Assembly (NCBI GenBank): GCA_017936005.1
Contig: JAGBGK010000027.1
Coordinates: forward strand, 1-46,946
Source of the DNA: Tidjanibacter sp.
Lineage (GTDB): Bacteria > Bacteroidota > Bacteroidia > Bacteroidales > Rikenellaceae
Direction: 5' to 3'
Length of the DNA stretch: 46,946 nucleotides
Below the pieces are notes generated by a model. The model saw only the letters and a program-made list of their open reading frames with translations. It did not search any database and was not told the DNA's origin. Both the position numbers and the translations under genes were made by a program. This document shows, in pieces, positions 471 through 14,775 of this stretch (position 1 is the stretch's first letter; each line of letters starts with the position of its first letter).

Positions 471-3400
471 CTACAACAAGCCGTCGGCTACCAACTCGTC
501 GATGGTGGCATCGCGAACACAGCGAGGAACTCCCACATTGTGGGTGTCCACCATAAAAATATTGCCACCCTGAATACCCCATCCGGCCTTTGGCTCTTTG
601 GCAACACCGGGCTCGCCAAGAACACCAAACGAGTAGTAGGTGCGGCAGAAGGGAACACCCTCGTTTACATAGGACGGGAAGTAGTAGAGCATCATTGCCA
701 GCTCGTTCTGGTTGGGAATACGATAGCCTTCCGGACAGTGGCCGCTCAACACACTGCTACCCACGTCCGAGATGTACCTATTGTGGTTCACCCACGACAT
801 GTTGTGGTTGTAGGATGCGGGAAGTGTGGGTAGGGAAGCAACCTTTGTGGGGGCAATGTAGAATCGTTTGGAGAGTCGGTTAACCTCTCGATTTTCGTCG
901 CTGAACGGGAGGTCGATGGACGATTGGTCGCGGAGGGCTTTTTCGTCGAGCCTTACGCAGGTGATAGAGAGGTTTTCGGTGTCGTACTCAACATACGAAT
1001 CAGGCTCTTGTGTGAGGTCGTAGCCCGTAGGGGTGGTTTCGTTGGTGGTGCCGAGGTTGCGTACGCAGCGCACCGTCCATTGGTAAACACGTCCCACATT
1101 TCCACCCGTATTGCTCCACACCCACGAGTTGTACAAGTCGCCCGTGGAGCACAACTCTTCGGCCCACACGATGGTTGGGTTGTTGCTGTTGTCGCCATAC
1201 ATAGTGCTCGACACAATGTGTTGCCTCCACACGGCGTTGTCCATACTTTGTCGCTCCTCCGAGGTGCGATGATAGAGCCTCGAATCGAACTTCAACAAAC
1301 CTTGTCCAATGGTCATACCGATAAGCTGACGTATGGAGGCGGTGTACCAACGTATTTCATCTTGGTCAATAAGGCCGTTACCGTTGTTGTCCCTGTTGCG
1401 GGTCATACACGAGTAGCGCAACTTTTGGTGTTCTTCTTGTAGCATAGGAACCTCGTTTGTTACCTCCCAATTCACATAGTCGGTCCACTTGACATTGGCC
1501 TTGATGGCTGTGTTGCTCACAAAGAGATCCCACTCTTTGATGGAGTTGAGTCGTCCGTTGTCCTGCGAGTTGTTTCCTCGGTTTTGGGCGGGGTTCACAT
1601 TTGGCTCTTCATACCTTGTGGTTGGAGCATTTTGGTCGTAGCGCCACATTTCGCCATACTCGTCGGTGTATTCCACACCCCACGCCGTGTGGAAGGAGGT
1701 GTTGGACGGGTTGGTGTCATAGATTGACTGTATGGGCCTCTGTTGGATGGTAACCACAGAGCCTTTGGACGAGCTCTCCTTGTCGTTGGACATAAAGGCG
1801 TCGCTCAGAATATAAAGATACCTGTCCTGTGGTGCATTCACATAGTTTTTCCAGAAGTCGTCGGGAATTTCGGCATTGGGGTTGCGAGGGTCGTAGTCGT
1901 AGTAGAACTCATCCACAAAGGCGGTGATACAAATCTTCGGCCCCGCCGGGTCTTTGTCGAAATCTCCCAGAGTACTGTATCCCTTGCTTGCATCGTAGCC
2001 TTCGAGGAATAGGTCGTGCTGGGTTTTGATATACTTCACCAGCTGACTGACATTCATAATTCCATCGGGCGAGTTTGTGGCGTGGTATTCGACGTTGGTA
2101 TATTCGCGACGCAAGTCGGAGAAATAGATGTCGTTGTCATCCATCTTATTGACACGGAATTTAACCCACTCATAGTCCAGCCCCGGGGGGATGATGTCGT
2201 TGCCGTTTGCGTCGATTTCGGGACCACCTTCGCCAAAGGGAGTGTTTACAAACCAAGTTAGCGCCTTGTCGCTACTGATGTTTTTGGCGTGGAAGGTGAG
2301 GGTGCGGGACGAGTAGTGGCAGTCGCAGAGCGCAATCTCTTCCTTTGCCACAACGACATTACCGAAGGCACCCGGTTGTATCTCGCTCGGTTGGCGACCA
2401 CTTTCGTCCACCGACTCTCCGCGAGCATCCACTTCGGTAGTGATGCTGTTCAGACCGTTGATGGTTACGGTGTAGTGATAATATGTGTTGCGGTTTACAT
2501 TAAAATTGTTCACCTCCTCTTTGGTTTTGCTACTGCCGAAGTTGCCGAGGTGGAGCAGGTATTGAACATCGCCACCAAGCTCTTGTCCGGCTTGCTCGCC
2601 TTCGAGTTCGGTCTTGACGTTACATTTGATGAGGACGTAGGTTGACAGGTTGTCGGCATACATAAAGTCGCGATTGCCATCCACATCCACACCATTTAGC
2701 CACCACGTTCCGTCCTGATACTTCGTCTGTCGGCTACGCTCGTGCAGGGGGACATAGTTGGGCACTGCGCTGTTGGTCAACGGAATCTCCATTTTGGGTT
2801 TGCGTCGGTTTTCAAGCATATAGAACCACGCCTCATAGGTGCTTGTGGTGCGTCCGGAGATGGTGGTTTGCGAAACCTCGTCGAAGGAGTTGAAACCATA
2901 GTCAAAGAAGTCCTCGGAGGTGGTTGTGGCATCGTGTCCGGTGGTGGTGTCGGTTGCCCCCTCAACCCTCATCTCATAGGGGAATGCGAAGCCCACTTTG
3001 GGAAGATTCACCACCTTGATTTCGGCATTGGAGAGGCTCATCACCTTGTCGCCCTGTTTGAGTGTGATGTGAATCTTGGCGTCCATATGGTGGAGCTGGA
3101 TGGTGGCGGTGTTGTTGGTGTTGTCGCCGGTGAAGATTTTAACCACACCGTTGTTGTCTTTGTGAATCTTCACATTGTCCAATTTGCCGCTCATTTGCAG
3201 AGCACCATTACGCGAGAGGGTTTGTTGAATCATACGTCCTCGGATGTTGAGGAGCTCTTGTTCGTTTTGCACCTGCGAGAGTCGGTCGGAGGAGATATCG
3301 ACCATATCGGCATCCAGATTGGTAATGATGTAGATTTGGTAGGTGTCATCCTCGTCAACGGAGGTGTGGATGTTAACCACGCCGGTTGTTTTTGTGTCGG

Positions 3401-3752
3401 CCGAGGAGGAGTTGTTCACATACCAACAATCTTCCGTGGCGCTCTCTACTTGCGCAGCCGATGTTTTGAGGTTGTTGTTGTCATAGTACTGCGAGTACAC
3501 CTTGTCGCCCGACGAGTCGAAGAGGAATACAAACATATTGAGTACTCGGTTCTCGTCGAGGTGGTTGAGGTTGTAGGCTCTGCTACGTACTTCGATATTC
3601 TCCGTTTGCGGGGGTGCAAAGTGGAGTAGTATGCCGTTTGTGGCGGGCGAGGAACCCACATCCTCGCTCGCAAGGTCGTTGGTGCAACCGATTAGTGTCA
3701 GACCGCCAATCAGCAGCGCCATCAGTGCCAATATGTATCTATTCTTCGTCAT
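471..3752 (-). CDS. DUF4906-type fimbrial lipoprotein, probable tip adhesin
   Basis: This 1093-aa protein has a lipoprotein signal peptide (lipobox LIGC, lipidated Cys23) and would be exported to the cell surface. Residues about 40-440 look like a fimbrillin fold, with an SRA motif near residue 58 that may be a protease maturation site. The C-terminal half matches DUF4906: a complete EF-hand-like loop (DNNGNGLIDQDE, about residues 788-799) and CPEGYRIPNQNE near 1006. It is the last and by far the largest gene of the eight-gene operon. In type V pili large terminal subunits sit at the tip, so a tip adhesin role is inferred. The ATG at 3752 was chosen because the longer frame begins with TTG two codons earlier. 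Family call is good; ligand unknown. Confidence 0.8.
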   Translation of the reverse strand: MTKNRYILALMALLIGGLTLIGCTNDLASEDVGSSPATNGILLHFAPPQTENIEVRSRAYNLNHLDENRVLNMFVFLFDSSGDKVYSQYYDNNNLKTSAAQVESATEDCWYVNNSSSADTKTTGVVNIHTSVDEDDTYQIYIITNLDADMVDISSDRLSQVQNEQELLNIRGRMIQQTLSRNGALQMSGKLDNVKIHKDNNGVVKIFTGDNTNNTATIQLHHMDAKIHITLKQGDKVMSLSNAEIKVVNLPKVGFAFPYEMRVEGATDTTTGHDATTTSEDFFDYGFNSFDEVSQTTISGRTTSTYEAWFYMLENRRKPKMEIPLTNSAVPNYVPLHERSRQTKYQDGTWWLNGVDVDGNRDFMYADNLSTYVLIKCNVKTELEGEQAGQELGGDVQYLLHLGNFGSSKTKEEVNNFNVNRNTYYHYTVTINGLNSITTEVDARGESVDESGRQPSEIQPGAFGNVVVAKEEIALCDCHYSSRTLTFHAKNISSDKALTWFVNTPFGEGGPEIDANGNDIIPPGLDYEWVKFRVNKMDDNDIYFSDLRREYTNVEYHATNSPDGIMNVSQLVKYIKTQHDLFLEGYDASKGYSTLGDFDKDPAGPKICITAFVDEFYYDYDPRNPNAEIPDDFWKNYVNAPQDRYLYILSDAFMSNDKESSSKGSVVTIQQRPIQSIYDTNPSNTSFHTAWGVEYTDEYGEMWRYDQNAPTTRYEEPNVNPAQNRGNNSQDNGRLNSIKEWDLFVSNTAIKANVKWTDYVNWEVTNEVPMLQEEHQKLRYSCMTRNRDNNGNGLIDQDEIRWYTASIRQLIGMTIGQGLLKFDSRLYHRTSEERQSMDNAVWRQHIVSSTMYGDNSNNPTIVWAEELCSTGDLYNSWVWSNTGGNVGRVYQWTVRCVRNLGTTNETTPTGYDLTQEPDSYVEYDTENLSITCVRLDEKALRDQSSIDLPFSDENREVNRLSKRFYIAPTKVASLPTLPASYNHNMSWVNHNRYISDVGSSVLSGHCPEGYRIPNQNELAMMLYYFPSYVNEGVPFCRTYYSFGVLGEPGVAKEPKAGWGIQGGNIFMVDTHNVGVPRCVRDATIDELVADGLL

Positions 3753-3853
3753 AGTCAAAACGTGTTATACGCTCTCATCTTATCTCTTCCTCTCCCCCCA
3801 CCTTCCACTTATGTACCCACACAGAGGAATCGGAGGGTTTTTGTCCGTCCTTG

Positions 3854-5443
3854 TCAATCAAATGTAACATCGCCGCCAGAGCCACCCTTCCACGGCACAA
3901 CCTCAAAGTTGAAATAACCATCCTCTGGATTGAAGAAGATGTTTACACCAACCTTGATGTGTGCATTGCGTTTCACCTCGGTAAGCTCAATGGTTCGACC
4001 GTTCGAATCGATGATGGTCAGATTGGCCGAGTGTGTGATCTCTTTGTTGTTCCACGGAGTTTTTGTCCAATTGGTTGATTGCTTCGGGGTGTGCAGATAC
4101 CAGCGTTGATTGTTGCTGTTTGCGGAGGTTCCGTTGCGCGCACCTCGCGTCAGTCCGGGGGAGTTGTTGCTGTTTGCGAGGAAGTATTTGTAGTTGCTGC
4201 CGGTATAGGACGAACGGAACCACGCGCTTGTGTTGTTGTAGCTGCCGAAAACAAAGTTCTCGGCATAATTCGCGTTGGTATTCACTCCAAGAGTGGTGCT
4301 ACTACGTTGGAGGTAGTGTCCTGTGCCGACATTGCGAATTGTTCCCGATGTGTTGCCGGAGAATACCCACAGATAGTTTTCGTCGTTGGTTGTGGGTGCT
4401 GTTGCCGACAGGGCCAGATAGCCATTGTTGTTGATGTAGAGGTAGCGGTTGTTGCCCGCATTGCGCAAAAAATATTGGTGTCCGGCGATGATGTCATAGT
4501 GGTTTACGGAGGTGTCGGGACCACCTTCTGCGGTGGTAATTGTGGGCACCTCTTTGAGGGCCTCGTTGCTACTCTCCGGATTGAACACATCGTTGCCAAA
4601 GACGGCAACCTTCAACCCCATGGTGTAGCTGCCATTTGGGGCGCTGCCCTCATAGACATAGTCGTCGAATAGCACAAATTCGCCACCGTTTTCAACATAG
4701 TGCGAGTTGTTGTTGACAGCAAACCCATTCCAAGCAATGCCACCGGGGGCTGTGTAGTCGTGGTTGAAGAGGTATGCGTTGGAGGCATTGAAGTTGCCGA
4801 GCGAGAAATTCGCAACCACAATCCTGTAATTTTCGTCCAACACGTGGTTGTGGGCCACGATACTAACCCTTGCGACCACCCTCTCCACTTCGCCACTGAT
4901 GAGGTTGACACCTTGCTTGAACGACACGGGTAGAATGGCTGTCATTGGCATCCCGTTGGCCTCGGAAAACGAGGGTGTGTTGGGCTCCGTGAGGGCGCCC
5001 ACGAGCGCATCTTTGAGGTTTGCCACCGAAGCATTTTCGGCCGTGTAGGGGCTCAGGTCGATGGGGGTGTTGGCAATGAGGAAGATTTCGTGCTCGCCAC
5101 GGTCGAGGTTCTCAAACGACACGAGAGCTTCGGTTTGTTCGTCGTTAAACTCCGCATTGTGTTCGTTGAGTGTGATCCATTTGTGAACCACTCCGTCTTT
5201 GGTTATCAACACCGTGAGGTTGTTCATCTTCTCTCCGGCCACGGCAGAACCTGCGCTGCCAACGGCGCGACTCTCTTCCGCCGAGGACACAGAGCTGACG
5301 GTGAGGACTACGGAAGCATCCCGAGGCCCATTGCTACCACCTCCGCTCACATCGGGCACCTCGGGGGTGATGTTGGTACAGCCGACCAACATCATCAGTC
5401 CGACGATTGCGAGGGAGAATATGTTTTTGTTGTTCCGAATCAT
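3854..5443 (-). CDS. Fimbrillin-like lipoprotein with inserted ricin-type beta-trefoil
   Basis: The 529-aa protein has lipobox LVGC (Cys22). Residues 45-300 are a FimB/Mfa2-like fimbrillin domain (LTVLITKDG, then EHEIFLIANTP, then ERVVARVSIVAHN), with an SRA motif at residues 58-60. Residues about 318-455 are different: Asn/Tyr/Leu-rich repeats (RNAGNNRYLYINNNGYLAL, RNVGTGHYLQRSST, NNQRWYLHTP) typical of a ricin-B-like beta-trefoil, with a QxW motif at QRW. Residues about 456-529 return to a fimbrillin C-terminal strand (NAHIKVGVNIFFNPEDGYFN). The trefoil therefore looks inserted between fimbrillin strands. A carbohydrate-binding accessory or tip subunit is inferred. It lies between a 361-aa fimbrillin and the DUF4906 gene. 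Confidence 0.75.
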   Translation of the reverse strand: MIRNNKNIFSLAIVGLMMLVGCTNITPEVPDVSGGGSNGPRDASVVLTVSSVSSAEESRAVGSAGSAVAGEKMNNLTVLITKDGVVHKWITLNEHNAEFNDEQTEALVSFENLDRGEHEIFLIANTPIDLSPYTAENASVANLKDALVGALTEPNTPSFSEANGMPMTAILPVSFKQGVNLISGEVERVVARVSIVAHNHVLDENYRIVVANFSLGNFNASNAYLFNHDYTAPGGIAWNGFAVNNNSHYVENGGEFVLFDDYVYEGSAPNGSYTMGLKVAVFGNDVFNPESSNEALKEVPTITTAEGGPDTSVNHYDIIAGHQYFLRNAGNNRYLYINNNGYLALSATAPTTNDENYLWVFSGNTSGTIRNVGTGHYLQRSSTTLGVNTNANYAENFVFGSYNNTSAWFRSSYTGSNYKYFLANSNNSPGLTRGARNGTSANSNNQRWYLHTPKQSTNWTKTPWNNKEITHSANLTIIDSNGRTIELTEVKRNAHIKVGVNIFFNPEDGYFNFEVVPWKGGSGGDVTFD

Positions 5444-5476: not shown

Positions 5477-6562
5477 TTACTGAATGTAGATGTCTTGGTT
5501 GGACTTCACCTCGGTCCACTCCTTGATGCTCACAGAGATATTCGTTGAGGCTCCGCTGAGCTCCATCGTAAAGAGATATTTTTTGCCTGCTTCGAGCGTC
5601 ATTGCGGGGAGGTATGCGCGGTGGATGGCTTGGTCGCCCGTCTCGGTTTTGAAGACGAACGACACCTGCTGCTCGCCGATGGTTTGGGGGATGGCGAAGA
5701 CTATTCCGTCGCCATCGAAGGCCACAGCGGCGGTGCCGTCGGTCCTACCGATGGTCTTGGAGCCGGTCCACAGATAGTTTCTGTTGGAGGGTTGCGAGGG
5801 GGTCCAATGTATGTTGGTTTCGGAGTCGCCCTCCAACCTTACGCCATAGTATAATACGCCCGAAGCGGCAATGCCGTCGATGTAGGCTTCGGTGAGCACA
5901 TCGGTATTTTCGAGTTTGTGTTTGATGCGGAATTGGAGAGCCGAAAGGACGTGCTGAAACTCCAACTTGACCTCACTCACACCTTCGGCATCCTTTGTCG
6001 GGTTGCGGAGGGTGCGTGCCACCATCAGGTCGAACTTGTTGGTCTGGGTGTAGTAGTTGAGCACCAATCTGCTTGCGTCGCTCATCGCCTGAATGTTTTC
6101 GGGAGGGAGGCCGTTTTGGTGGTCGTTACCGTCGGGATTGTATGGAACAAAGGCTCTGAATTCGTGGTCGAGGAGTCGGAGCCAAGGCCTGCGAGGTTCT
6201 TCGTCGGTGCCACAGTTATACTTGGAGGTGTCGCCATAGACCCATTGGTCGGTGTGTGTGGTGCCATTGGCATCACGGAAACTTGTTGCGTAGGAGAGTA
6301 TTTCGGGGTGGTTGAGGAAGATGTTGTCGCCCGTTTCATACCTTCCAAACACAGCAATCTTATGGTTCTGGATGGTGGTGGACACAATGGTAGTAGAGCC
6401 TGCGCCGGCACGCCCTGCTTCGGAGGGTTGCGGAGCCTCGGTGGGTGTGTCGAATACGAGCAAATCTCGCCGTGGTTGTGGTGTTACAACCTCGGGCGAG
6501 TTGCAGGCCGGCGTTGTAGCGAGCAGAGCCAACACAAAGGCGTATGTTGTCAGTTTCTTCAT
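5477..6562 (-). CDS. Fimbrillin family lipoprotein (Mfa-like)
   Basis: This 361-aa lipoprotein (signal peptide ending TTPAC, Cys20) has the domain layout of Bacteroidales Mfa-like/fimbrillin proteins. These features are an early disordered stretch with a GRA motif near residue 51, a WLRLLDHEFRAFVPYNPDG strand that resembles the family's W-x-F-x-A-Y/F-x-P block, and EFQHVLSALQFRIKH, the family's conserved H-x-L-S-x-L-x-F strand. It ends with IKEWTEVKSNQDIYIQ, the Trp-containing final strand. It probably is an accessory pilus subunit exported through the Lpp pathway. It is 33 bp upstream of the ricin-containing gene and 58 bp downstream of the next fimbrillin, so co-transcription is likely. Confidence 0.82.
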   Translation of the reverse strand: MKKLTTYAFVLALLATTPACNSPEVVTPQPRRDLLVFDTPTEAPQPSEAGRAGAGSTTIVSTTIQNHKIAVFGRYETGDNIFLNHPEILSYATSFRDANGTTHTDQWVYGDTSKYNCGTDEEPRRPWLRLLDHEFRAFVPYNPDGNDHQNGLPPENIQAMSDASRLVLNYYTQTNKFDLMVARTLRNPTKDAEGVSEVKLEFQHVLSALQFRIKHKLENTDVLTEAYIDGIAASGVLYYGVRLEGDSETNIHWTPSQPSNRNYLWTGSKTIGRTDGTAAVAFDGDGIVFAIPQTIGEQQVSFVFKTETGDQAIHRAYLPAMTLEAGKKYLFTMELSGASTNISVSIKEWTEVKSNQDIYIQ

Positions 6563-6620: not shown

Positions 6621-7565
6621 CTACTCTTCGATTATGGCGCTGATGTTGTCGTGTAGGAATCCGACGCTGTCGGTGTAAATTTTCAGGGTGTAGAGATAGC
6701 CCACACCCGGTTGCCAAGCGACGTTTTTGTCTGCCTCCAACGTTTGGTTGGGGAGGGTTGCGTTTGCATAGACGAAGTCGCACAAGATTTTCACTTTGGC
6801 GGTGGTTATCTGTGGGAGCACCCATTTCGGCTCTCCGAGCAGCTTCACTTCGCCCGACTGCACCGCCTCGTTGCCCTCAAAGACCACCTGCTCACACAGC
6901 TCTCCCTCTGTGGCCCACGACGGCTCGGGGAGAGAGGCAAAAGAGCCTTTGTGTTGTAGCTGCCCGACGGAAATTTTGCGAATCACAACGCCTATGTGGT
7001 CGGGCAGGTGTGGTATCACAGCAAATTGTACCGAGCAGAGGGCGTGCTTGAACGGGATGGTGATGACTCCGCTGCCCACTCCGTAGGACTTGTCGCAGAT
7101 GGGCCCTGCGAACAGCAACTCACTACCGCCATCCTCCAACACATCCACATCGCGGAACACCACACCCTCCTCGTCGGAGAACGATGCTTGGGCGGTTGCG
7201 GGCGAGTAGGCTGCCACGGTGAGCCTCTTTTCGGCAGGCCAAGCGTGTGGTGTTGCAGTGTTCCACTCCGTGCCGTTCCAGCCGACCACCTCGTCATCTA
7301 CAACCACCTCGGCGGTGTGGCTGTCGTACTCCCACAGGAGGTTGTCGTCGAGTGTGGCCACCCACACCCCAAAGGAGCTATCCTTCGGGTAGATGTTGCT
7401 GCCGCCTTCGCCTTCGTGGTCGGCTCTGGCCACCTGCGACATCACCACCACCGGCTCGTAGGAGATGGGCCCGAGGTCGGGCCACGTCTTTTCGGTGCAA
7501 CCACCCAACAAGAGGAGTGCTGCCGCACACAGGAACAGAGTGTCTATGTTGTTTGTCTTCTTCAT
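6621..7565 (-). CDS. Fimbrillin family lipoprotein (Mfa-like)
   Basis: This 314-aa lipoprotein has lipobox LGGC (Cys23). Family features are ARADHEGEG near residue 48 (possible Arg-Ala processing site), AWPAEKRLTVAAYSP (the W-P-x-x-x-x-L-x-F/A-x-A-Y-x-P strand) and IPFKHALCSVQFAVIP. The C-terminus (LHDNISAIIEE) lacks the Trp seen in three of the neighbouring proteins, so the last strand has diverged. It is probably a minor pilus subunit. It sits in the middle of the operon, 29 bp after the gene upstream. Confidence 0.78.
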   Translation of the reverse strand: MKKTNNIDTLFLCAAALLLLGGCTEKTWPDLGPISYEPVVVMSQVARADHEGEGGSNIYPKDSSFGVWVATLDDNLLWEYDSHTAEVVVDDEVVGWNGTEWNTATPHAWPAEKRLTVAAYSPATAQASFSDEEGVVFRDVDVLEDGGSELLFAGPICDKSYGVGSGVITIPFKHALCSVQFAVIPHLPDHIGVVIRKISVGQLQHKGSFASLPEPSWATEGELCEQVVFEGNEAVQSGEVKLLGEPKWVLPQITTAKVKILCDFVYANATLPNQTLEADKNVAWQPGVGYLYTLKIYTDSVGFLHDNISAIIEE

Positions 7566-7594: not shown

Positions 7595-8668
7595 CTATTC
7601 GATTTCGAGGACAAAGTCGCCTCCGCTAATCCAGTCGGCAGAGATGACGGGCTTGTCAAACTCGATGAAACTTGTAGCACCTTTGTCCCAAGTGAGATAG
7701 TAGGTGTAGTGGTTACCACGCCCCCAGTAGCTATTGGTGAATTTTTGTCGGAGGTTGATGGTTGCGCTCTCCACAGCTCCGCTGTACGAATCGTGCCACT
7801 CCACATACATCTCGGCCTGCGTGCCCTCTTGGCCCACTTGGTGTACTTGTGGGAGCACGAGAGTCGGCTCGCCCACCTGATTGGCGCTCACGTCCAACAC
7901 CACACCTTCGGTGCCCTCGTTGCGGTAGTCGTAGAGGGTGATGGTTTTGGGTTGGGACTGTGCATCCCAACGCGATGTAGCGGAGGAGTAGTTGCCTCGG
8001 GTGAATATTTGTCGCAATTCCACACGTTGCAGGGTAATGTTGTATGTTCTGCCACCAACCACATACTCAGAGGCAAGGCCGGCGATGACCTGCACTCGGG
8101 AGAGGGTGTGGCGGAATACGGTGGGGACACCACCGAGGGTGTTTTCGTGGAAGCGGTTCTTCTGGCCTTCGCCCACCTCGGCAATCATCAGGTCGATACC
8201 TTTGGTTGCCTCTGCCGAGGTGTCCCAACCGGTTACGATTGTGGCGTCGGTAGCGGTGTCGATGGTGATGTTGGTTATCTGATTGCCATTGTTGTCGCCC
8301 CACGGGGAGTGTGCGAAGAATGTGAGCCAATAGGTGTGTGGCCAAAACTGTGCAGGGTTGCCCACCCACGCACCCAACGTGGGGTTGTACTCCACCTTCA
8401 CGCCCGAAAAATACTCCACGGCGTTCGCTTTGCTGCGGTCCCAATGGTAGTCGTTGGGCAGAGCATAGGCCGATGCGGAGAAGGGGATGTCGGTGGGATA
8501 GACCACACCGTCGGCCCTCGACTCGCTCTCTTCAAGGCCCACCACGCTCTGGAAGCCCACAAGCGACGGCTGTTCGCTCTCGTAACCATCCACGTTGACA
8601 CACGCCACCGAGGCACACATCGCCACCACGGCGGAGAGTAGTTTTGCTATGTGGGTTTTCGTTTTCAT
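7595..8668 (-). CDS. Fimbrillin family lipoprotein (Mfa-like)
   Basis: The start is set at the ATG at 8668 (MKTKTHIAKLLSAV) because this gives a clean lipoprotein signal (ASVAC, Cys23). The frame is open 54 codons further upstream, but that extension has no signal peptide. The 357-aa product carries ESRADGVVYP near residue 52, FWPHTYWLTFFAHSPWG (conserved strand), VFRHTLSRVQVIAG and a C-terminal Trp strand (SADWISGGDFVLEIE). All match the Mfa-like fimbrillin pattern. It is probably a pilus shaft or accessory subunit, second in the fimbrillin series. Confidence 0.8.
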   Translation of the reverse strand: MKTKTHIAKLLSAVVAMCASVACVNVDGYESEQPSLVGFQSVVGLEESESRADGVVYPTDIPFSASAYALPNDYHWDRSKANAVEYFSGVKVEYNPTLGAWVGNPAQFWPHTYWLTFFAHSPWGDNNGNQITNITIDTATDATIVTGWDTSAEATKGIDLMIAEVGEGQKNRFHENTLGGVPTVFRHTLSRVQVIAGLASEYVVGGRTYNITLQRVELRQIFTRGNYSSATSRWDAQSQPKTITLYDYRNEGTEGVVLDVSANQVGEPTLVLPQVHQVGQEGTQAEMYVEWHDSYSGAVESATINLRQKFTNSYWGRGNHYTYYLTWDKGATSFIEFDKPVISADWISGGDFVLEIE

Positions 8669-8775
8669 TCTGTTGGTTTCTTTACTTGTTTTTGTGTGCC
8701 TCGGGGGAGTAGTCGGCTCCCACGAGGCTTGGTTGGCGCACTTATACCCTGCGCCACGGGTTAAGGGGTGTTGGA

Positions 8776-9759
8776 TTAGAGTTCGATGGTGAAGCTCTGG
8801 TCGGTCCAATCCTCCTGCGAGGGAGCCCACATGATTTGCTCAACAGCACCGATGGTGAAGTTGTAGGAGATATTCTCGTTCATACTCCACATCTTGTCGG
8901 CGGTGTCAATATCGTCGCCGAGGTGTTTCTTAACGGTAACGGTCTCGGTTGCGCCATTGTTGGTTACGGTGTAAACAACGGTCAGGTAGCTTGCGCTGGT
9001 GAACTCCTGAGGAATCACGTAGGAGTGGTCAATTGTAATCTCCTGAGTTGCATCGGTAACGGTCAAATCGCCGGAGAAGAGAGTGCAAGTCTCGCTGCTG
9101 GCACCATCGGGCACGGTCCAGAAGTCAACAACGGTACCGCTGCCGTGAATGGTGTTGTAGGGCATGGTGTAGGTACCCTCGGAATATACACCGCTGATTA
9201 CGATGCTTTTGAGTTTGATTTCACGAGGGTCGCTTGCAGCCTTGGTGATACCGAAGTTGAGTTTGGTCAACTTGTGGCGGAACACGGCGGGAACGTCGTT
9301 ACCTTTTGCCTCGCGAACGATGTCGGCAACACGGAGGTCAACATTCTTGTTGGTCTCCACGCTGTAACCGGAGATGACGTAGTCTTTGTTGGTGTTCCAC
9401 TCGCGGGTTGCGGTGAAGCCGGTAGGAGCCACAGCGAAGAAGGTGAGGCTACCACGTGCGGGCCAATAGTAGGCGGTGCCGGTGGTCCAATCGCCGCTGG
9501 TGTTGGTTACCGTCTCGTTCTGGAAGTAGGGCTGAGCAGTGGAGTGTGCGCCGGCCCAAGTCTCGCCTTCGTTCAGCAGGAAAGCGGCAGCGATGAATGA
9601 GTCGCCCTCAAAGGCGCCACGATTCTCAACAGGCACGCTCTGAACAGCTTGGAAGTCGATCCTCTCACCCTGTGCAAAGTTACCACTGAAATCAACCTCG
9701 TTCTTCACGCAGCTGGCAAGTGCTACACATGCTGCTGCAATAGCGATAAGTTTTTTCAT
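8776..9759 (-). CDS. Fimbrillin family lipoprotein, candidate major pilin
   Basis: The ATG at 9759 starts MKKLIAIAAACVALASC with Cys17 as lipidation site; the longer open frame upstream is A/C-rich leader, not coding. The 327-aa product has NRGAFEG (possible Arg maturation site near residue 47), YYWPARGSLTFFAVAPTG, VFRHKLTKLNFGITK and a final strand EDWTDQSFTIEL. It is the first fimbrillin in the operon and the only one preceded by a long leader with almost no G. Such a leader is typical of highly translated Bacteroidetes genes, so I infer this is the main shaft subunit. The family assignment is firm; the major-pilin role is inference. Confidence 0.82.
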   Translation of the reverse strand: MKKLIAIAAACVALASCVKNEVDFSGNFAQGERIDFQAVQSVPVENRGAFEGDSFIAAAFLLNEGETWAGAHSTAQPYFQNETVTNTSGDWTTGTAYYWPARGSLTFFAVAPTGFTATREWNTNKDYVISGYSVETNKNVDLRVADIVREAKGNDVPAVFRHKLTKLNFGITKAASDPREIKLKSIVISGVYSEGTYTMPYNTIHGSGTVVDFWTVPDGASSETCTLFSGDLTVTDATQEITIDHSYVIPQEFTSASYLTVVYTVTNNGATETVTVKKHLGDDIDTADKMWSMNENISYNFTIGAVEQIMWAPSQEDWTDQSFTIEL

Positions 9760-9925
9760 AGTTTTGTTTGTTTTAGAAAGGTTAATAAATGTTAATTGGT
9801 TTGTTTGTGTTTTGTTTGTTGTTTGTTGATTAATTGGTTGTTTGTTTCTGTTATTTGCGTTTTTTGATGTTGTCTGTTGTGTCTGTTTCGTGTTGTCAAG
9901 TTTTATTTTGGTTAGTTTATTTTCA
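9760..9925 (-). promoter_or_regulatory. G-poor, A/C-rich leader upstream of the first fimbrillin
   Basis: This 166-base gap is the largest inside the operon. Read as mRNA (minus strand) it contains only about eight G residues and many AACAAAC-type runs, so it should be unstructured and favour ribosome loading in a genus that rarely uses Shine-Dalgarno pairing. I did not find a convincing TAnnTTTG box within it. A processing site or a separate start remains possible. Confidence 0.5.
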
Positions 9926-10948
9926 TTACAATTCCATATCGAAGTGCTCCTCCTTCCAATCCTCCGTCTCGGGCTTGAAACCACCACCCGCAGTGGGAGG
10001 AGTGGAGGGCTTGTCGATGGTGATAACCTCGTCCAACAGCAGCCAGTTGTGTTCCTTACACTCGGGGCTCTCAAACAATTTCGAAATGTTGAAATCCCTG
10101 TTCTCCACACGGCCGTCCACGGTGTTGATGTTGAACGACACCCACAACTCGTTGTTCGAGTGGTCGATGTGTCCAAAGGTGTTAAAGACACTACACAACA
10201 CCGCCGAGCCCTTGTCGTCGCTCTTCTGCAAGGAGAAATAGATGGCCGTCTCGGGCACGTCAACCCTCTGGCGGCTACCGAGCATATTGCTGCCGGCCAT
10301 ACCCGTCAGGATGGCCTGCGCACTCGACACCCATTCCAATCCCTCAACCTTCACCTGCAAGTAGAAGGTCTCGGTTACGGGTGTGGCGGTTGTGCGGATG
10401 GTGTAGAGCTCGTCGTGCCACGGGATGCTCTTTGCGGCATCGGTGGCCACCCACACAAGGTCGGGTTGGTGGCGTATGTCCAGAGGCTCGTTCGCACGGG
10501 TGTTGAAACGACTTGCAAGGGCCTCCGACACCGACGAGGTGTAGGCCTCGATGGTGTGGTGGCTGTAATCGTTGCGGATGATGGTCGATGGGGTGTCGAA
10601 GTTATAGACAACCATTTCGTAGTTGCCGGGCATAATACCCACACGGCCCGAAACAACGTGGCGGCCTTGCGAGTCGGTCGAAACGCTGCTGATGTAGCTC
10701 TCGCCTGCAATCCTGTTCTCCCCGGGCTCATAGAAGAGCACCCTCAGCATCTCTGGATTGGTGGGTTGGGGTTGTATCTTGGGATTGTAGATGTCGCAGG
10801 TTACGTTGCGCATACCTTCGGCGTCGATGACAACCTGCAATTCGGTGGTGAAGTTGGGGTCCAACAAGGGCCTGCGCTCACAGCCAAGCACCGCGAACAC
10901 CATCACCATCACAAGGAGTGCTGCCGTATGTCTGCACGCCAACCTCAT
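9926..10948 (-). CDS. DUF5119 domain lipoprotein of the fimbrial operon
   Basis: This 340-aa lipoprotein (VLGC lipobox at residues 20-23, then ERRPLLDPNFTT) matches DUF5119, a family usually found next to fimbrillin and DUF3575 genes in Bacteroidales. It has a fimbrillin-like beta-rich body (PEMLRVLFYEPG, GIMPGNYEMVVYNF, ETFYLQVKVEGLEWV) and ends EDWKEEHFDMEL, very like the end of the first fimbrillin (EDWTDQSFTIEL). The ATG at 10948 overlaps the stop of the preceding gene as TGATG, so the two are translationally coupled. An anchor or assembly role is inferred from position. Confidence 0.82.
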   Translation of the reverse strand: MRLACRHTAALLVMVMVFAVLGCERRPLLDPNFTTELQVVIDAEGMRNVTCDIYNPKIQPQPTNPEMLRVLFYEPGENRIAGESYISSVSTDSQGRHVVSGRVGIMPGNYEMVVYNFDTPSTIIRNDYSHHTIEAYTSSVSEALASRFNTRANEPLDIRHQPDLVWVATDAAKSIPWHDELYTIRTTATPVTETFYLQVKVEGLEWVSSAQAILTGMAGSNMLGSRQRVDVPETAIYFSLQKSDDKGSAVLCSVFNTFGHIDHSNNELWVSFNINTVDGRVENRDFNISKLFESPECKEHNWLLLDEVITIDKPSTPPTAGGGFKPETEDWKEEHFDMEL

Positions 10949-12213
10949 CACCAACTGCCTCCTTTCGTCTTAATGGTGATGGGTACAACAAGCGATATCT
11001 CCGCCTTGGTGGGACCAACCCAGTGGAGGCGGCCGGCGTTGAATTTATCTCTGATGAGGTCCTGCCAATCGTCCGTGGGGACATAGTGGCGGTAGGGGAT
11101 GTTGGCATAGCCCACTGAGAGCGAAAACTCGATGTTCATTCGCTTGCCCAACGGAGCCGAATAGCCATAAGTGAGTCCTGCGCTCCAAAATTCACCCTGA
11201 TAGCAGCCCCAAGTGTTGGCTTGGAAATCGAACATTCCGCTCATGGCATAGGCTCCCAAGAAGTGGCCCACAAGCCTATCTCTGCCGGGGAAGTTGCCAT
11301 TGGGTGCAACGGGTTTTGGTGCAAACCACCACCTTGCTTCGCCGCCAATCGCAAGCAGCTGCAAGCAGTAGCGGTTGTTCTCCGTCAGCCACCACGGGCA
11401 AATGTGGTTGTACACCAACGAGAAGCGATTGCCAATGGGTGCCTCCACTGCAAAGTTGACAACAGTGGCCGCATCGTAGAGGGCGTTGGTTTTCAGCGCC
11501 AGAATGGTCCTACGCGAGGAGCTTGGGGCGGGTAGTGGTCTGAATTGAAGGTGGAAGGGTGGGGTGATGTCGGATGCAACATCACTCTTGGGTGCGGTGG
11601 TGGGGAGTGCCGCCACGTGTTGCGACCAATAGATGACAAGCGTTGTTGCCGTACGCAGGTAGGGTAGGTGGTGGCGGTTGATGTAGGAATATGGCAGGCC
11701 CTTGCGCAACTTCATCAGTTGGCGCATCTTCTTGTCGGGGTGGACACCCTTGCGACGCAAAATCTGCAACACCTCCCTCTTGAAGGGAACATCTTTGTCG
11801 GCCTCCACGCGCTCGATAAGACCGGAGAAGTCCTCACCCAGAGGCTCCTCCCTCATCTGTTCCAGCCCCAGAGTCTTGTAGCGTTTCAGCAACCAATATT
11901 TGGTCGTGCCGGAACGACGGGCCGAAAGCCTTTGGTTGTAACGAACGCTACCCTCCGGCGAAGCATAGGCAACAATGGCGACACTGTCGATATACTTGCC
12001 GTTGGCCTCAAAGAAGTTGTCGAGGGATTGGATGGTTTGGCGGTTGGAGAGGTAGCTCTCGTCGAGGACATATTTGTCGTGGCGGAAATAGAGAGTAGCA
12101 GACATCGTGTGGGACTCTCTCTTTTGAGCCCAAAGCGACGTCGCGCACGTGAGTGCAACGAGCAACACGACAATTTTTCTGCAACTATATTTTATCGAAA
12201 AATAGTTCTCCAT
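10948..12213 (-). CDS. DUF3575 outer-membrane protein with OmpA-like N-terminal domain
   Basis: The first gene of the operon encodes 421 aa with a signal peptide ending SLWAQ. Residues about 35-130 resemble an OmpA-like peptidoglycan-binding fold (YASPEGSVRYNQRLSARR is its hallmark). Residues about 230-420 match DUF3575, a beta-barrel-like domain (LKTNALYDAATVVNFAVE, YGYSAPLGKRMNIEFSLSVG). Proteins of this architecture open many Bacteroidales fimbrial operons and may anchor or guide assembly in the outer membrane. Its stop overlaps the DUF5119 start. Confidence 0.85.
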   Translation of the reverse strand: MENYFSIKYSCRKIVVLLVALTCATSLWAQKRESHTMSATLYFRHDKYVLDESYLSNRQTIQSLDNFFEANGKYIDSVAIVAYASPEGSVRYNQRLSARRSGTTKYWLLKRYKTLGLEQMREEPLGEDFSGLIERVEADKDVPFKREVLQILRRKGVHPDKKMRQLMKLRKGLPYSYINRHHLPYLRTATTLVIYWSQHVAALPTTAPKSDVASDITPPFHLQFRPLPAPSSSRRTILALKTNALYDAATVVNFAVEAPIGNRFSLVYNHICPWWLTENNRYCLQLLAIGGEARWWFAPKPVAPNGNFPGRDRLVGHFLGAYAMSGMFDFQANTWGCYQGEFWSAGLTYGYSAPLGKRMNIEFSLSVGYANIPYRHYVPTDDWQDLIRDKFNAGRLHWVGPTKAEISLVVPITIKTKGGSW

Positions 12214-12350
12214 TCCTTCTCGACCTAACCAAATCGGTGGACAGTTGTGTTGTTTTTCGGAGGCAAAAGAGACTCAAACACCGCCCCGTTCAAGCCCCAC
12301 GTTTGTCCCCTTTTCTCTTAAAGAGAAAAAATAAATTATGCCCACGAAGC

Positions 12351-12468
12351 CTAAGATAGTGTTTTTTTGTGTTAGTAGGGTGAATTTTTCGATTAAAAAT
12401 AGTCATTTTGTCATTTTTTGGGTATATGGGGGGGGTAATTTGAATGTTAAAATCGGAAAATAGTACAT
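12351..12468 (-). promoter_or_regulatory. Candidate fimbrial operon promoter with two upstream motifs
   Basis: TATCTTAG (minus strand, 12358 to 12351) is one base off the TAnnTTTG -7 consensus. Upstream are AAAATagtCATTTT (12396-12409) and AAAATCGGAAAATAGTACAT (12449-12468). Both recur with almost the same spacing upstream of the araC gene (13739-13752 and 13791-13810). This shared layout suggests binding sites for the neighbouring AraC regulator. The -7 call is tentative; the motif repetition is seen directly. Confidence 0.5.
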
Positions 12469-12642
12469 ATTTGTTTTGCGGGCAAAATGTGGTAGGAGTG
12501 TGGTTCGGTTCGTCTTTGCCACCCCCAAATCATCCCCTCTGTGGCCCCATTTCGCATTGGCTGGCGACAACAGAAAAGAGGTCGTCCGACAAGGTGATTT
12601 TTGCGTTATGCACGTCTTGAAATCACTCGTGTCGCACAACCT

Positions 12643-12691
12643 CAACAAAAGAGGGTATGCCCAACTTTCGGTTAGGCATACCCCTTCTCAA
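12643..12691 (-). terminator. Terminator of the AraC regulator gene
   Basis: GGGTATGCC (12653-12661) pairs with GGCATACCC (12675-12683), with a further AAC/GTT pairing in the loop. On the minus strand it lies about 40 bases after the araC stop and is followed by TCTTTTGTTG. An A-rich stretch on the other side would let it also act on the plus strand. Confidence 0.7.
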
Positions 12692-12724
12692 AAAAGATAG
12701 TTTTAGGAATTGTGTAGAAGAATT

Positions 12725-13651
12725 CTAAACATTTTTTTGCTCCCTAATGGGGGAGTTCACACTCTGACGCCACTGTTGTGGGGTCATTCCCGTGTAGCGC
12801 TTGAAGTAGCGGCAGAAGAACGAAGGAGTTGCAAAGTTCATCCTATCGCTCACGATGGTCGTCGACAGGCTCGCATTGAGCAACAATCGTTTGGCATTTT
12901 TGATTACCATCTCTGCAATCATATCCGAAGGAGTGATGCCCGTAACCCTCTTGATTTTGCCCGAAAACTGCTTGGCGCTCATACCAAACAACTCGGCATA
13001 GTATTCCACGTCGCGGTGCTCGAACGAGCTGGCTGTAAGCATCATACTAAACCTCTTGGCCAACTGTTCGCTAGCAGAACTCTCCTTCACGGCGAGGTTG
13101 CGACGCAGGAAAATGTCAACCAACTCCGAGCGCAGAATGGCCAATGTGTTGCGGTCAATGTCAGCACGATTGCAGTTGCGATAGTTAGCCGAGGATGCGG
13201 CAATGTACTCCATCAGCGCGGTCATAACCCTGTTCTCTTGTTTGAGCAACGAGATTACGGGATTTTGGCGCAAACGGGGGAAGGTGTTTACAATGCTACC
13301 CACCGAAGCTTCGTCGTTGATGCGGCCCACAATGGTTGATGCCAAAAAGTCAGGCGATACGGTGGTGAAACGGCAGTAGGTGCCGGCAAAGATTATGAGC
13401 ATCTGTCCGGCCCTAACAATGTGGGAGGTTCCATCAACAGAAGCTTGTACGCTTCCGGCCCTGCATATCCACATTATCACGCCGTCCTTGAACATAATTG
13501 AACGATCCATCATTGTGGTCGTCATTGCATCGCCACCTGCAATGTCGAAGTAGTGAAACGAAGGCTCAGGACGCAATTGCAGACTCTTGACCATAAAGTC
13601 AAAGTCGAAAATTCGGTTAGGGTTTTGGGGGTTGTTGTGATGTGTCGGCAT
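12725..13651 (-). CDS. AraC family transcriptional regulator
   Basis: The 308-aa protein has an N-terminal cupin-like sensor region (about 30-180; GDAMTTTMMDRSIMFKDGVI, IVRAGQMLIIFAGTYC) and a C-terminal AraC double helix-turn-helix (about 205-300). The latter shows FGMSAKQFSGKIKRVTGITP and FATPSFFCRYFKRYTGMTPQQWR, the classic second-helix signature. It is transcribed toward the fimbrial operon and has its own terminator. A role in controlling the pili is inferred from adjacency and from sequence motifs shared by both promoters. Met20 (MVKSLQLRPEP) is an alternative start; the longer ATG was kept. Confidence 0.9.
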   Translation of the reverse strand: MPTHHNNPQNPNRIFDFDFMVKSLQLRPEPSFHYFDIAGGDAMTTTMMDRSIMFKDGVIMWICRAGSVQASVDGTSHIVRAGQMLIIFAGTYCRFTTVSPDFLASTIVGRINDEASVGSIVNTFPRLRQNPVISLLKQENRVMTALMEYIAASSANYRNCNRADIDRNTLAILRSELVDIFLRRNLAVKESSASEQLAKRFSMMLTASSFEHRDVEYYAELFGMSAKQFSGKIKRVTGITPSDMIAEMVIKNAKRLLLNASLSTTIVSDRMNFATPSFFCRYFKRYTGMTPQQWRQSVNSPIREQKNV

Positions 13652-13685
13652 AGAATAATGTGTTTTTTAGTATGTCGTTACGGTG

Positions 13686-13810
13686 CAAAGATAATTATTT
13701 ACACAAAACCTCGCGCGCAAAAGAGAAATTTGACATAGAAAATGCACATTTTTCATATATTTTCCAAAAGCCGCGCAAAAACAGCACATAAAAATCGGAT
13801 AATAGAACAT
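13686..13810 (-). promoter_or_regulatory. araC promoter with the two motifs shared with the fimbrial operon
   Basis: TATCTTTG (minus strand, 13693 to 13686) is a perfect -7 box about 35 bases before the start codon. Upstream are AAAATgcaCATTTT (13739-13752) and AAAATCGGATAATAGAACAT (13791-13810). The two motifs start 52 bases apart here and 53 bases apart before the fimbrial operon, in the same orientation. Confidence 0.6.
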
Positions 13811-13911: not shown

Positions 13912-14775
13912 TTATCGCTCGTTTTGGCCACCCATAATGTCGAGCAATTCTGTGGTGATGGCCTGCTGGCGTTGTTTGTTGTATTCAAGTGCGAGTTCGC
14001 CAATCAGCTTGTCGGCATTGTCGGTTGCGGTCTGCATCGCAATCATCCTCGCAGCGTGTTCGGAGGCAGAAGCCGAGAGTGCCGCAGAGTAGAGTTTCAG
14101 GGTGATTTGTCGGGGCACAATCTCCGCAATAAGTTGCTCCCTATCGGGCTCCAAAATATACTCCGTGGTGTAGCTGTCGCCACCCTCTGTTTTCTCCATT
14201 TCTATTGGCAGAAGTTGTTCACACACGAGTTTTTGTGTGCCGGCAGAGAGGAATTTATAATAGACAATATCCACCCTGTCGGTATCCCCCGCAAGGTACT
14301 CATTCATCAATCGATTGGCCATCTCGCCGGCCATCTCATAGGTGGGCTTATCTGCCAAATCCTCGTGCCCATCTTCGCACATAAAGCCCTCGCGATGTAG
14401 CCCCTTGGCAAGTTGTTCTCCCACAGCAATAATTTCCACTTTGCCACCCTCGGTTGCCCACTCTCGGGCGGTCTTGGTGGTGCGCCTCACCACATTACCA
14501 TTGTAGGCTCCGCAGAGCGTTCCGTTGGACGCAAAGCCCACGAGTGTAACCCTTTCTATGGTGCGTGGAGTGGCAAGGGTAAGGGGGGTGTTTTCCTGGC
14601 TGCCAACCAAGTGGGAGGTGATTTTTTGCAGTTCATCGGAGTAGGGTACAAGCGCACCAATGGCCCTTTGGGTGCGGTGCAGTTTTGCTGCCGCAACCAT
14701 CTTCATAGCCGAGGTAATCTTGCGTGTGCTACGCACCGATGCAATCCTCTCTTTTATCTCCCTGAGCGATGCCAC
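13912..14775 (-). CDS. atpG: ATP synthase F1 gamma subunit
   Basis: The 287-aa protein begins MASLREIKERIASVRSTRKI and contains ITSAMKMVAAAKLHRTQ, the gamma-chain signature of the N-terminal helix. Its C-terminal helix (SASASEHAARMIAMQTATDN) matches the family. Together the two helices form the rotating coiled-coil shaft inside the alpha/beta hexamer. The start codon is GTG. It is the last gene of the ATP synthase operon, 19 bp after atpA. Confidence 0.96.
   Translation of the reverse strand: MASLREIKERIASVRSTRKITSAMKMVAAAKLHRTQRAIGALVPYSDELQKITSHLVGSQENTPLTLATPRTIERVTLVGFASNGTLCGAYNGNVVRRTTKTAREWATEGGKVEIIAVGEQLAKGLHREGFMCEDGHEDLADKPTYEMAGEMANRLMNEYLAGDTDRVDIVYYKFLSAGTQKLVCEQLLPIEMEKTEGGDSYTTEYILEPDREQLIAEIVPRQITLKLYSAALSASASEHAARMIAMQTATDNADKLIGELALEYNKQRQQAITTELLDIMGGQNER

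Follow-up and report, generated by a model that had tools for sequence, protein, structure and literature searches.

The promoter regions of two neighbouring genes on contig JAGBGK010000027.1 of Tidjanibacter sp., one encoding an AraC-family regulator (araC) and the other opening an operon for type V pili, share stretches of nearly identical sequence, which raises the question of what these stretches are and whether the regulator acts through them on its own gene and on the pili. The window, that is, the whole stretch of DNA analysed here (46,946 nucleotides), is the entire contig, C39 in our numbering, of an assembly (G000) of 1.97 Mb and 88.78% completeness. A preliminary description of the locus had reported two motifs, M1 and M2, recurring in the same order and orientation before both genes, and had taken the pair as a strong candidate for the AraC binding pattern, implying autoregulation and direct control of the pili. 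The present analysis makes it highly probable that the shared stretches serve the neighbouring AraC-family regulator as its operator, giving self-control together with direct control of the pili; this operator would be a direct repeat of an asymmetric half-site, of which M1 would form the first half in each promoter.

Motifs shared by the araC and pilus promoters

The coordinates, sequences and spacings of M1 and M2, read off the printed sequence, proved exact to the base. M1 occurs at 12449-12468 (AAAATCGGAAAATAGTACAT) before the pilus operon and at 13791-13810 (AAAATCGGATAATAGAACAT) before araC, with 18 of 20 positions identical; as both downstream genes lie on the minus strand, it is best read there as ATGTWCTATTWTCCGATTTT. 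The M2 pattern is found in the window only at 12396..12409, before the pilus operon, and at 13739..13752, before araC, and its copies share 11 of 14 bases. The spacings between M1 and M2 (52 bases at araC, 53 at the pilus operon) and the distances to the -7 box (46 and 98 bases at araC, 38 and 91 at the pilus operon) are those given in the preliminary description.

M1 exceeds chance expectation: when both intergenic regions were dinucleotide-shuffled, the best shared 20-mer matched at no more than 17 of 20 positions in 1000 trials, and with a single region shuffled none of 100 trials reached 18 of 20. M2 taken alone is weak, since shuffling the DNA that separates M1 from the -7 box produced an equally good match at the corresponding offset in 19 of 1000 trials. 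Searching the whole genome for M1 with up to three mismatches returned the two window copies (no mismatch to the pattern) and one further place with three, against none for the reversed pattern. Among the relatives, the orthologous loci examined do not contain the 20-mer in its literal form: with up to five mismatches allowed, none was found in L005-L007 and L009-L015, and a single five-mismatch match in L008. By the preliminary description's own wording this absence would have refuted its interpretation. Across the genus, near-matches with three mismatches are scattered, and several genomes contain no more of them than the reversed-pattern control.

A predicted tandem operator

What the relatives do share is a looser element, RTGTKCWAWWTTTCC, recovered by motif finding on the orthologous promoters, where it stands as a direct repeat at 20-23 bp. 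The search was restricted to intergenic DNA from which atpG had been removed (with the atpG coding DNA included, it returned mostly atpG codons), and L045, with 58 bases, was dropped as too short. A de novo tandem search for one 16-base element repeated at 20-23 bp in 17 intergenic regions yielded ATGTgCaaTATTTCCc with a score of 187.0, compared with 80.9-99.8 on 14 shuffled sets, and a search for a single element gave nearly the same word, ATGTGCaaTTTTTCCC. In the window, the predicted araC operator (13774..13810, minus strand) consists of half-site 1, ATGTTCTATTATCCGA (13810-13795, inside M1), and half-site 2, ATGTGCTGTTTTTGCG (13789-13774), 21 bp apart; the predicted pilus-operon operator (12432..12468, minus strand) consists of half-site 1, ATGTACTATTTTCC (from 12468, inside M1), and a weaker half-site 2, ACATTCAAATTACCCC (12447-12432), again 21 bp apart. 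As sequence, the repeat has the layout of AraC/XylS-type operators, in which asymmetric half-sites follow one another in the same orientation at about two helical turns. Of the claim that M1 and M2 together make up the AraC pattern, the part on M1 is well supported and the part on M2, which the half-site model does not pick, is not; nor did M2 find support as a further, third half-site.

When the window was left out of training, the model still placed the sites at 13810 (score 16.7) and 12470 (13.9) at the top of the 46.9-kb window, in that order and with both strands considered, the third rank being the first site in another register and the best unrelated place scoring 11.3. Training on one promoter class also recovers the other: the model from the 11 araC promoters alone places the pilus operators of L035, L036, L037, L039 and L040 within the top three of the whole locus, and that from the six pilus promoters alone does so for the araC operators of the window, L035, L036, L039, L040 and L042. 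Each of the four held-out pilus loci (L044, L175, L176 and L177) has its highest-scoring site, out of all positions in the stretch, ahead of the DUF3575 gene. Between promoters (19 of 22; L177 and the araC promoters of L040 and L041 omitted), half-site 2 is 0.49-0.54 identical, compared with 0.27-0.30, the background level, for the flanks, which argues that the likeness of the operators is not plain shared descent.

Spacing to the -7 box

Bacteroides promoters have the -7 consensus TANNTTTGY (PMC12632263). The araC promoter of the window carries the -7 box TATCTTTG at 13686..13693 (minus strand), 96 bp from the start of half-site 2, and the pilus promoter a probable box, TATCTTAG, with one mismatch to TAnnTTTG, at 12351..12358 (minus strand), 89 bp from the corresponding start. 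A strict TAnnTTTG lies 25 to 150 bp downstream of half-site 2 in 16 of 22 promoters, and in 14 of these 16 it begins at 87-90 or 97-102, the two outside these ranges being the window araC promoter, at 96, and L177. When the DNA following the site was shuffled, a mean of 0.15 and a maximum of one promoter fell in range (300 trials). Boxes with one mismatch fall in the same ranges in the window pilus promoter and the L039 pilus promoter (both at 89), L042 (99), G009 (100) and G010 (88). The two distance classes occur at araC and pilus promoters alike; they differ by about one helical turn, the interval that a protein contacting RNA polymerase from a single side of the helix would require. Single half-sites near -45 were seen only in the window araC promoter, in L176 and, reversed, in L175, and are no more than hints of a half-site at the -33 box.

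The predicted operator follows araC among pilus loci

The 23 genomes of the genus analysed here contain 60 gene rows with DUF3575, the domain encoded by the first gene of the pilus operon; 40 were examined, comprising 24 with a large gene like that of the window (six used in training, 18 held out) and 16 controls with a small gene encoding DUF3575 only. The 20 omitted rows are other short frames, pieces at contig edges and a 387-aa frame in G011. The starts of the genes were assigned mechanically, and the upstream DNA of L192 is limited to 366 bp. At a tandem score of at least 16, six of nine held-out large DUF3575 loci in araC-bearing genomes have the site (L044, L175, L176, L177, L179 and L202), as opposed to none of nine in araC-less genomes (Fisher p = 0.0045), where the maximum is 11.9. 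A fimbrillin search (PF13149) located pilus genes beside 15 of the 24 large DUF3575 genes, and G018 (L044) has DUF5119 together with a fimbrillin-like match; for the other eight, the same search found no pilus genes on the contig, some of these loci lying at contig ends. Counting only held-out loci with confirmed pilus genes, the site precedes five of six in araC-bearing and none of four in araC-less genomes (p = 0.024). Of the 12 araC-bearing genomes, this comparison covered 11 (the twelfth being G021), and each of the 11 has at least one large DUF3575 gene with the site, six of these being in part training loci. Fifteen of the 16 DUF3575-only controls score at most 8.6, some of them with short upstream DNA.

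A sequence model, R1, built from 19 sites and applied to the 150 best first-look candidates of each genome, points to further targets. The four best scored matches in the genome of the window are araC (at the top, and part of R1 training), a pilus operon on contig C20, the pilus operon on C39 and a site at C11:35499. The C20 operon (L179), a second pilus operon, is preceded by ATGTGCAATACTCCCG and ATGTGCAATAACACCC, 22 bp apart and followed by nine G; its site was held out of the tandem model and included in R1 training, while the C11 site was in neither. The latter (L221, G000:C11:35499-35531) has TACCTTTG at +99 and precedes the gene of a 209-aa protein that reads like an outer-membrane barrel and is likely a further member of the regulon. 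The next three matches of this genome have no -7 box at the right distance. In G022, a site outside the training set (L242, C113:9566-9599) lies 141 bp, counted from half-site 2, before a fimbrillin gene (PF13149, 93.4 bits), with no spaced -7 box. G016 leads the genus with 13 R1 matches at E<=1 and possibly has an enlarged regulon; two of its sites, L227 and L239, have no spaced -7 box. A match at C31:4151, near a C9 run, was considered as a pilus-type promoter and rejected: it lies between genes of LacI and NAGLU type (types read from the translations), against their direction, and has no spaced -7 box.

G/C runs in the pilus promoters

The pilus promoter of the window holds another element, which the preliminary description did not mention: a homopolymer of eight (12428..12435; G on the plus strand, C on the strand of the pilus operon) that overlaps the 3' end of half-site 2 and is a candidate slipped-strand element between operator and core promoter. 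It is the only G/C run of at least seven in the window. Nine such runs occur in 12 loci (210,082 bases); each of the six pilus promoters accounts for one of them, located at the operator or immediately past it. The held-out loci L175, L176 and L177 have runs of nine at the operator and L044 has none, so that the arrangement known from Bordetella, a G/C run between operator and core promoter, is present in nine of the first ten pilus promoters and in that of C20, where a G9 run (10939-10947) adjoins the operator, the runs of these ten promoters measuring 7-9 bases; in L202 a G10 run lies elsewhere, at +146 from the site.

Within 700 bp upstream, runs are found at 16 of the 24 large DUF3575 genes and at none of the 16 DUF3575-only genes (p = 1.2e-5; held-out 10 of 18, p = 3.3e-4), a count that includes the run of L197, 673 bp ahead of its presumed gene start, and excludes a G8 of L200 that falls barely within the presumed gene. 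For loci with confirmed pilus genes the figure is 13 of 16, against 0 of 16 controls (p = 1.6e-6; held-out 7 of 10), and for those without confirmation 3 of 8. Between species the runs vary in length (7-10) and in strand, and they do not as a rule occur in araC promoters. Runs of 9-10 also precede large DUF3575 genes in the araC-less genomes G003 (L191), G008 (L193) and G006 (L201), with pilus genes confirmed in G003 and G006; the run and the operator are thus separate layers, of which the run may be the older.

Counts by run length in 222,082 bases are 311 (five), 37 (six), 2 (seven), 4 (eight) and 4 (nine), and the genome of the window has 26 runs of at least seven (11 of seven, three of eight, 11 of nine and one of ten). 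This excess of long runs is the profile expected of selected repeats, yet the others in this genome lie mostly at unrelated genes or gene ends. We rejected the notion that all long G/C runs of the genome are pilus switches, as among 13 runs of at least eight that were examined only one, on C20, precedes DUF3575. A recurrent pattern of nine C followed by 8-12 A near gene ends was noticed on contigs C24, C37, C45 and C57 of the same genome (L180, L182, L186 and L187). An invertible promoter, considered because the run is C on the operon strand here and G in five relatives, was also rejected: the region around 12214-12724 holds three weak inverted-repeat pairs and no convincing one, and C-strand runs also occur in L175 and L176.

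Gene context of the regulator

On the minus strand, the gene order runs from ATP synthase genes ending in atpG through araC, the DUF3575 gene and a DUF5119 gene to fimbrillin-type genes. The regulator (12725..13651, minus strand; 308 aa) has a C-terminal double helix-turn-helix (PF12833, 68.1 bits, cut-off 33.6; PF00165, 41.4 bits, cut-off 26.6), with HTH_18 at residues 218-296, and an N-terminal part with no Pfam match; it belongs to no known family in the NCBIfam scan, where all 19 families among the matches listed fall below their cut-offs. The gene is present in 12 of the 23 genomes, its own included, with 43-82% identity in the other 11, and its nearest relatives come from herbivore-gut assemblies of Tidjanibacter sp. 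and one Rikenellaceae bacterium. Its upstream neighbour is atpG (13912..14775, minus strand), here and in 10 of the 11 relatives having araC; in the exception, L038, atpG is downstream of araC and reversed. In L043 (G021) and L045 (G018), araC follows atpG at 94 and 58 bp, respectively, with no operator between them, and is perhaps read through from the ATP synthase operon. An inverted repeat 3' of araC (I1, 12653..12683, minus strand) with 13-nt arms and a 5-nt loop is probably a terminator, and for this reason araC is probably transcribed separately from the pilus operon.

The pilus operon lies directly downstream of araC in six loci (the window, L035, L036, L037, L039 and L040) and, as a seventh, in L044. 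In the window, all its genes are on the minus strand. The first (10948..12213) encodes DUF3575 (108 bits) and a weak OmpA-like part (20.2 bits, below the cut-off of 27.2). The name 'OmpA-DUF3575' for the larger DUF3575 genes was dropped, as OmpA matched at E<=0.001 in four of ten scanned, one of them over the cut-off. In the large DUF3575 proteins of L192, L202 and L179, BACON domains are added. There follow the gene of a DUF5119 protein (9926..10954, profile match) and two fimbrillin-like open reading frames (ORFs), 8776..10263, whose true start is probably internal, and 7595..8830, both with no Pfam match and resembling ORFs in the operons of relatives. Next come two Mfa_like_1 fimbrillins (6621..7565 and 5477..6562, profile matches) and a FimA-like protein (3854..5443; 21.7 bits, cut-off 21.4), the row ending in a 1095-aa ORF (471..3758) that matches nothing in Pfam or NCBIfam. 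The FimA-like protein has a long Asn/Ser-rich middle that looks like a lectin-type insertion, and no PDB sequence matches it at E<=1. With fimbrillin genes in one row (two ORFs with PF13149, one with PF06321) and a promoter of its own, the latter recognized by sequence only, the row qualifies as a type V pilus operon.

Alternative explanations

Several observations weigh against assigning the operator to this regulator. The score threshold of 16 and the -7 ranges of 87-90 and 97-102 were both drawn after the data had been seen, boxes with one mismatch are common, most promoters having more than one within 60-140, and the spacing count includes the close kin L035 and L036 and the weak araC sites of L040 and L041. 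The identity of half-site 2 is inflated by the use of the model to select sites, and shuffles ignore relatedness, so that the window-left-out, cross-training and held-out tests weigh more. In the window itself, half-site 2 of the pilus operator is poor and the model from araC promoters alone omits this site from its top five, while the model from pilus promoters alone yields no convincing araC sites in L034, L037, L038, L041, L043 and L045. The araC promoters of L038 and L041 are weak, and no site was found in the short intergenic stretches before araC in L043 (G021) and L045 (G018). Three of the nine held-out loci in araC-bearing genomes (L192, L194 and L197) have no site, though a different pilus operon in each of these genomes does carry one; in G016 (L177) the pilus site lies on the opposite strand; the pilus promoter of G018 (L044) lacks both a G/C run and a spaced -7 box; and the sixteenth DUF3575-only control, in G016, scores 21.7. 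R1 matches at E<=1 occur in 12 of 12 araC-bearing and 3 of 11 araC-less genomes, a count that is largely circular because 11 of the 12 supplied training sites, and the twelfth, G021, has only weak matches, none with a spaced -7 box.

Alternatively, the operator could be that of some other regulator, either another AraC-type or a hybrid two-component protein, with the nearness of araC being incidental. The genome of the window has seven AraC-type matches, this one included, and one of the three araC-less genomes with an R1 match has a -7 box at +88 (G012:C91). Even so, the absence of the element from the large DUF3575 loci of araC-less genomes (0 of 9) speaks against it, as do the scores above 18 that the tandem model gives to 8 of the 11 scorable araC promoters, which self-control predicts (though all are in its training), and we consider it unlikely. 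The model of the preliminary description, in which M1 and M2 are two distinct spaced elements that jointly form the AraC pattern, draws on their equal order, orientation and spacing in both promoters and on the confinement of M2 to these two places in the window; given that 19 of 1000 shuffles match M2 equally well, and that the half-site model skips M2 in both window gaps and that half-sites in the gaps of relatives are inconsistent in place, it appears less probable still. That the likeness of M1 reflects chance or recent copying between the two promoters, and has no regulatory meaning, would suit the absence of the literal 20-mer from the orthologous loci, yet it is already contradicted by the shuffles (0 of 1000), the cross-validation, the held-out loci and the -7 spacing, and is scarcely credible. 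Control by the neighbouring AraC protein is the reading we retain: in relatives the element recurs in the promoters of araC and of the pilus operon, at fixed distances from the -7 box, and it follows araC in held-out loci, so that autoregulation and direct pilus control are well supported for the half-site repeat and not for the literal 20-mer.

For the G/C run, the alternative to a length switch is a fixed spacer, a DNA-shape element or an assembly artefact. The genomes are metagenome assemblies with one consensus length per species, and long G/C runs also occur at gene ends and other genes of this genome; on the other side, runs of eight to nine are over-represented relative to the decay from five to seven, and the runs are concentrated upstream of confirmed pilus loci, differing in length and strand between species. 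A fixed run is a real possibility, falling somewhat short of an even chance.

Proposed mechanism and significance

From the computed element, its repeat structure, spacing and distribution, we infer that a pair of monomers of this AraC-type protein would bind the direct repeat of the half-site, 20-23 bp or two helical turns apart. Half-site 2 begins 87-90 or 96-102 bp ahead of the -7 box, which places the repeat on the same side of the helix in both classes. The protein would activate araC itself, the adjacent pilus operon, the second pilus operon on C20 and probably the outer-membrane protein gene on C11. Activation of both araC and the pilus operon is the simplest mechanism because the geometry is equal at the two promoters and upstream of the core promoter; on these grounds we regard it as likely, and the self-control of araC as probably positive. 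Gain or loss of a base in the G/C run would change the distance from operator to promoter, and pilus expression could in this way be phase-variable, the run being a candidate slipped-strand switch that may add a random on/off setting to the pili. Tentatively, the Rikenellaceae might possess a two-layer pilus switch in which a self-activating AraC regulator provides a memory-like on state and slippage in living cells retunes the spacing, each operon being switchable alone under one regulator.

Among the open-access papers listed in literature searches, judged by titles and the starts of abstracts, none describes this operator or a G/C run in a Bacteroidales pilus promoter, which is no proof of absence. 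The analysis provides a predicted regulator, operator and regulon for type V pili of a gut lineage known here only from metagenome assemblies, and the spacing rule makes the operator prediction checkable base by base. Variation in run length could be checked in existing metagenome reads, with no need for culture.

Comparison with known systems

AraC of Escherichia coli occupies asymmetric half-sites in direct repeat, about 21 bp apart, at araI1-I2. The repeat described here resembles this arrangement, and the C-terminal helix-turn-helix is related (2k9s, E 0.00052); identity with the arabinose regulator itself was rejected (NF007860, 25.6 bits, cut-off 208). CfaD is an AraC-family activator of E. 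coli fimbriae. AggR is a further AraC-family parallel for fimbrial control in E. coli (PMC6392122). A close counterpart is Rns, which is positively autoregulated and whose pilus promoters have, besides a site adjoining -35, a distal one centred at -109.5 or -108.5; its core site is TATTTTTTTATC (PMC2579436). As with Rns, an AraC-family protein here has, by sequence, the same operator in its own and in the pilus promoter, and the repeat would be centred near -100 or -111, similar to the distal Rns site, assuming a transcription start roughly 11 bp beyond the first base of the -7 box. The present system differs from Rns, CfaD and AggR in phylum, promoter type and pilus class, and from Rns in core sequence, and only hints of a site adjacent to -35 were found.

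The G/C run is reminiscent of the fim2, fim3 and fimX promoters of Bordetella pertussis, where a C run lies near the activator site and its length affects transcription, the fimX runs being only C7-C8 (PMC1891110, PMC10172299). In both cases a G/C run lies near the activator site, here a predicted one, of a pilus promoter. The Bordetella activator, BvgA, is a response regulator, unlike the AraC-type protein considered here; length change has been demonstrated there, whereas each species is represented here by one consensus assembly, and the run ends about 60-81 bp before the -7 box, farther than in Bordetella. In the gut commensal Bifidobacterium breve, slippage in a G run switches sortase-dependent pili (PMC9187656); that run, unlike those in the pilus promoters described here, lies inside a coding gene, and the pili are of the sortase-dependent kind. 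The type V pili of Bacteroidota, by comparison, are the same pilus class as those of the window. Bacteroides thetaiotaomicron likewise has DUF3575 and pilus genes side by side (BT4227-BT4236), next to a response regulator (PMC10434189). Bacteroides also has a fimbrial locus mentioned as phase-variable, in a passage that describes DNA inversion for capsule loci and names no mechanism alongside the fimbrial one (PMC12632263). Should the G/C runs prove variable in length, they would bring slipped-strand switching of pilus promoters to an order for which that passage describes phase variation by DNA inversion (PMC12632263).

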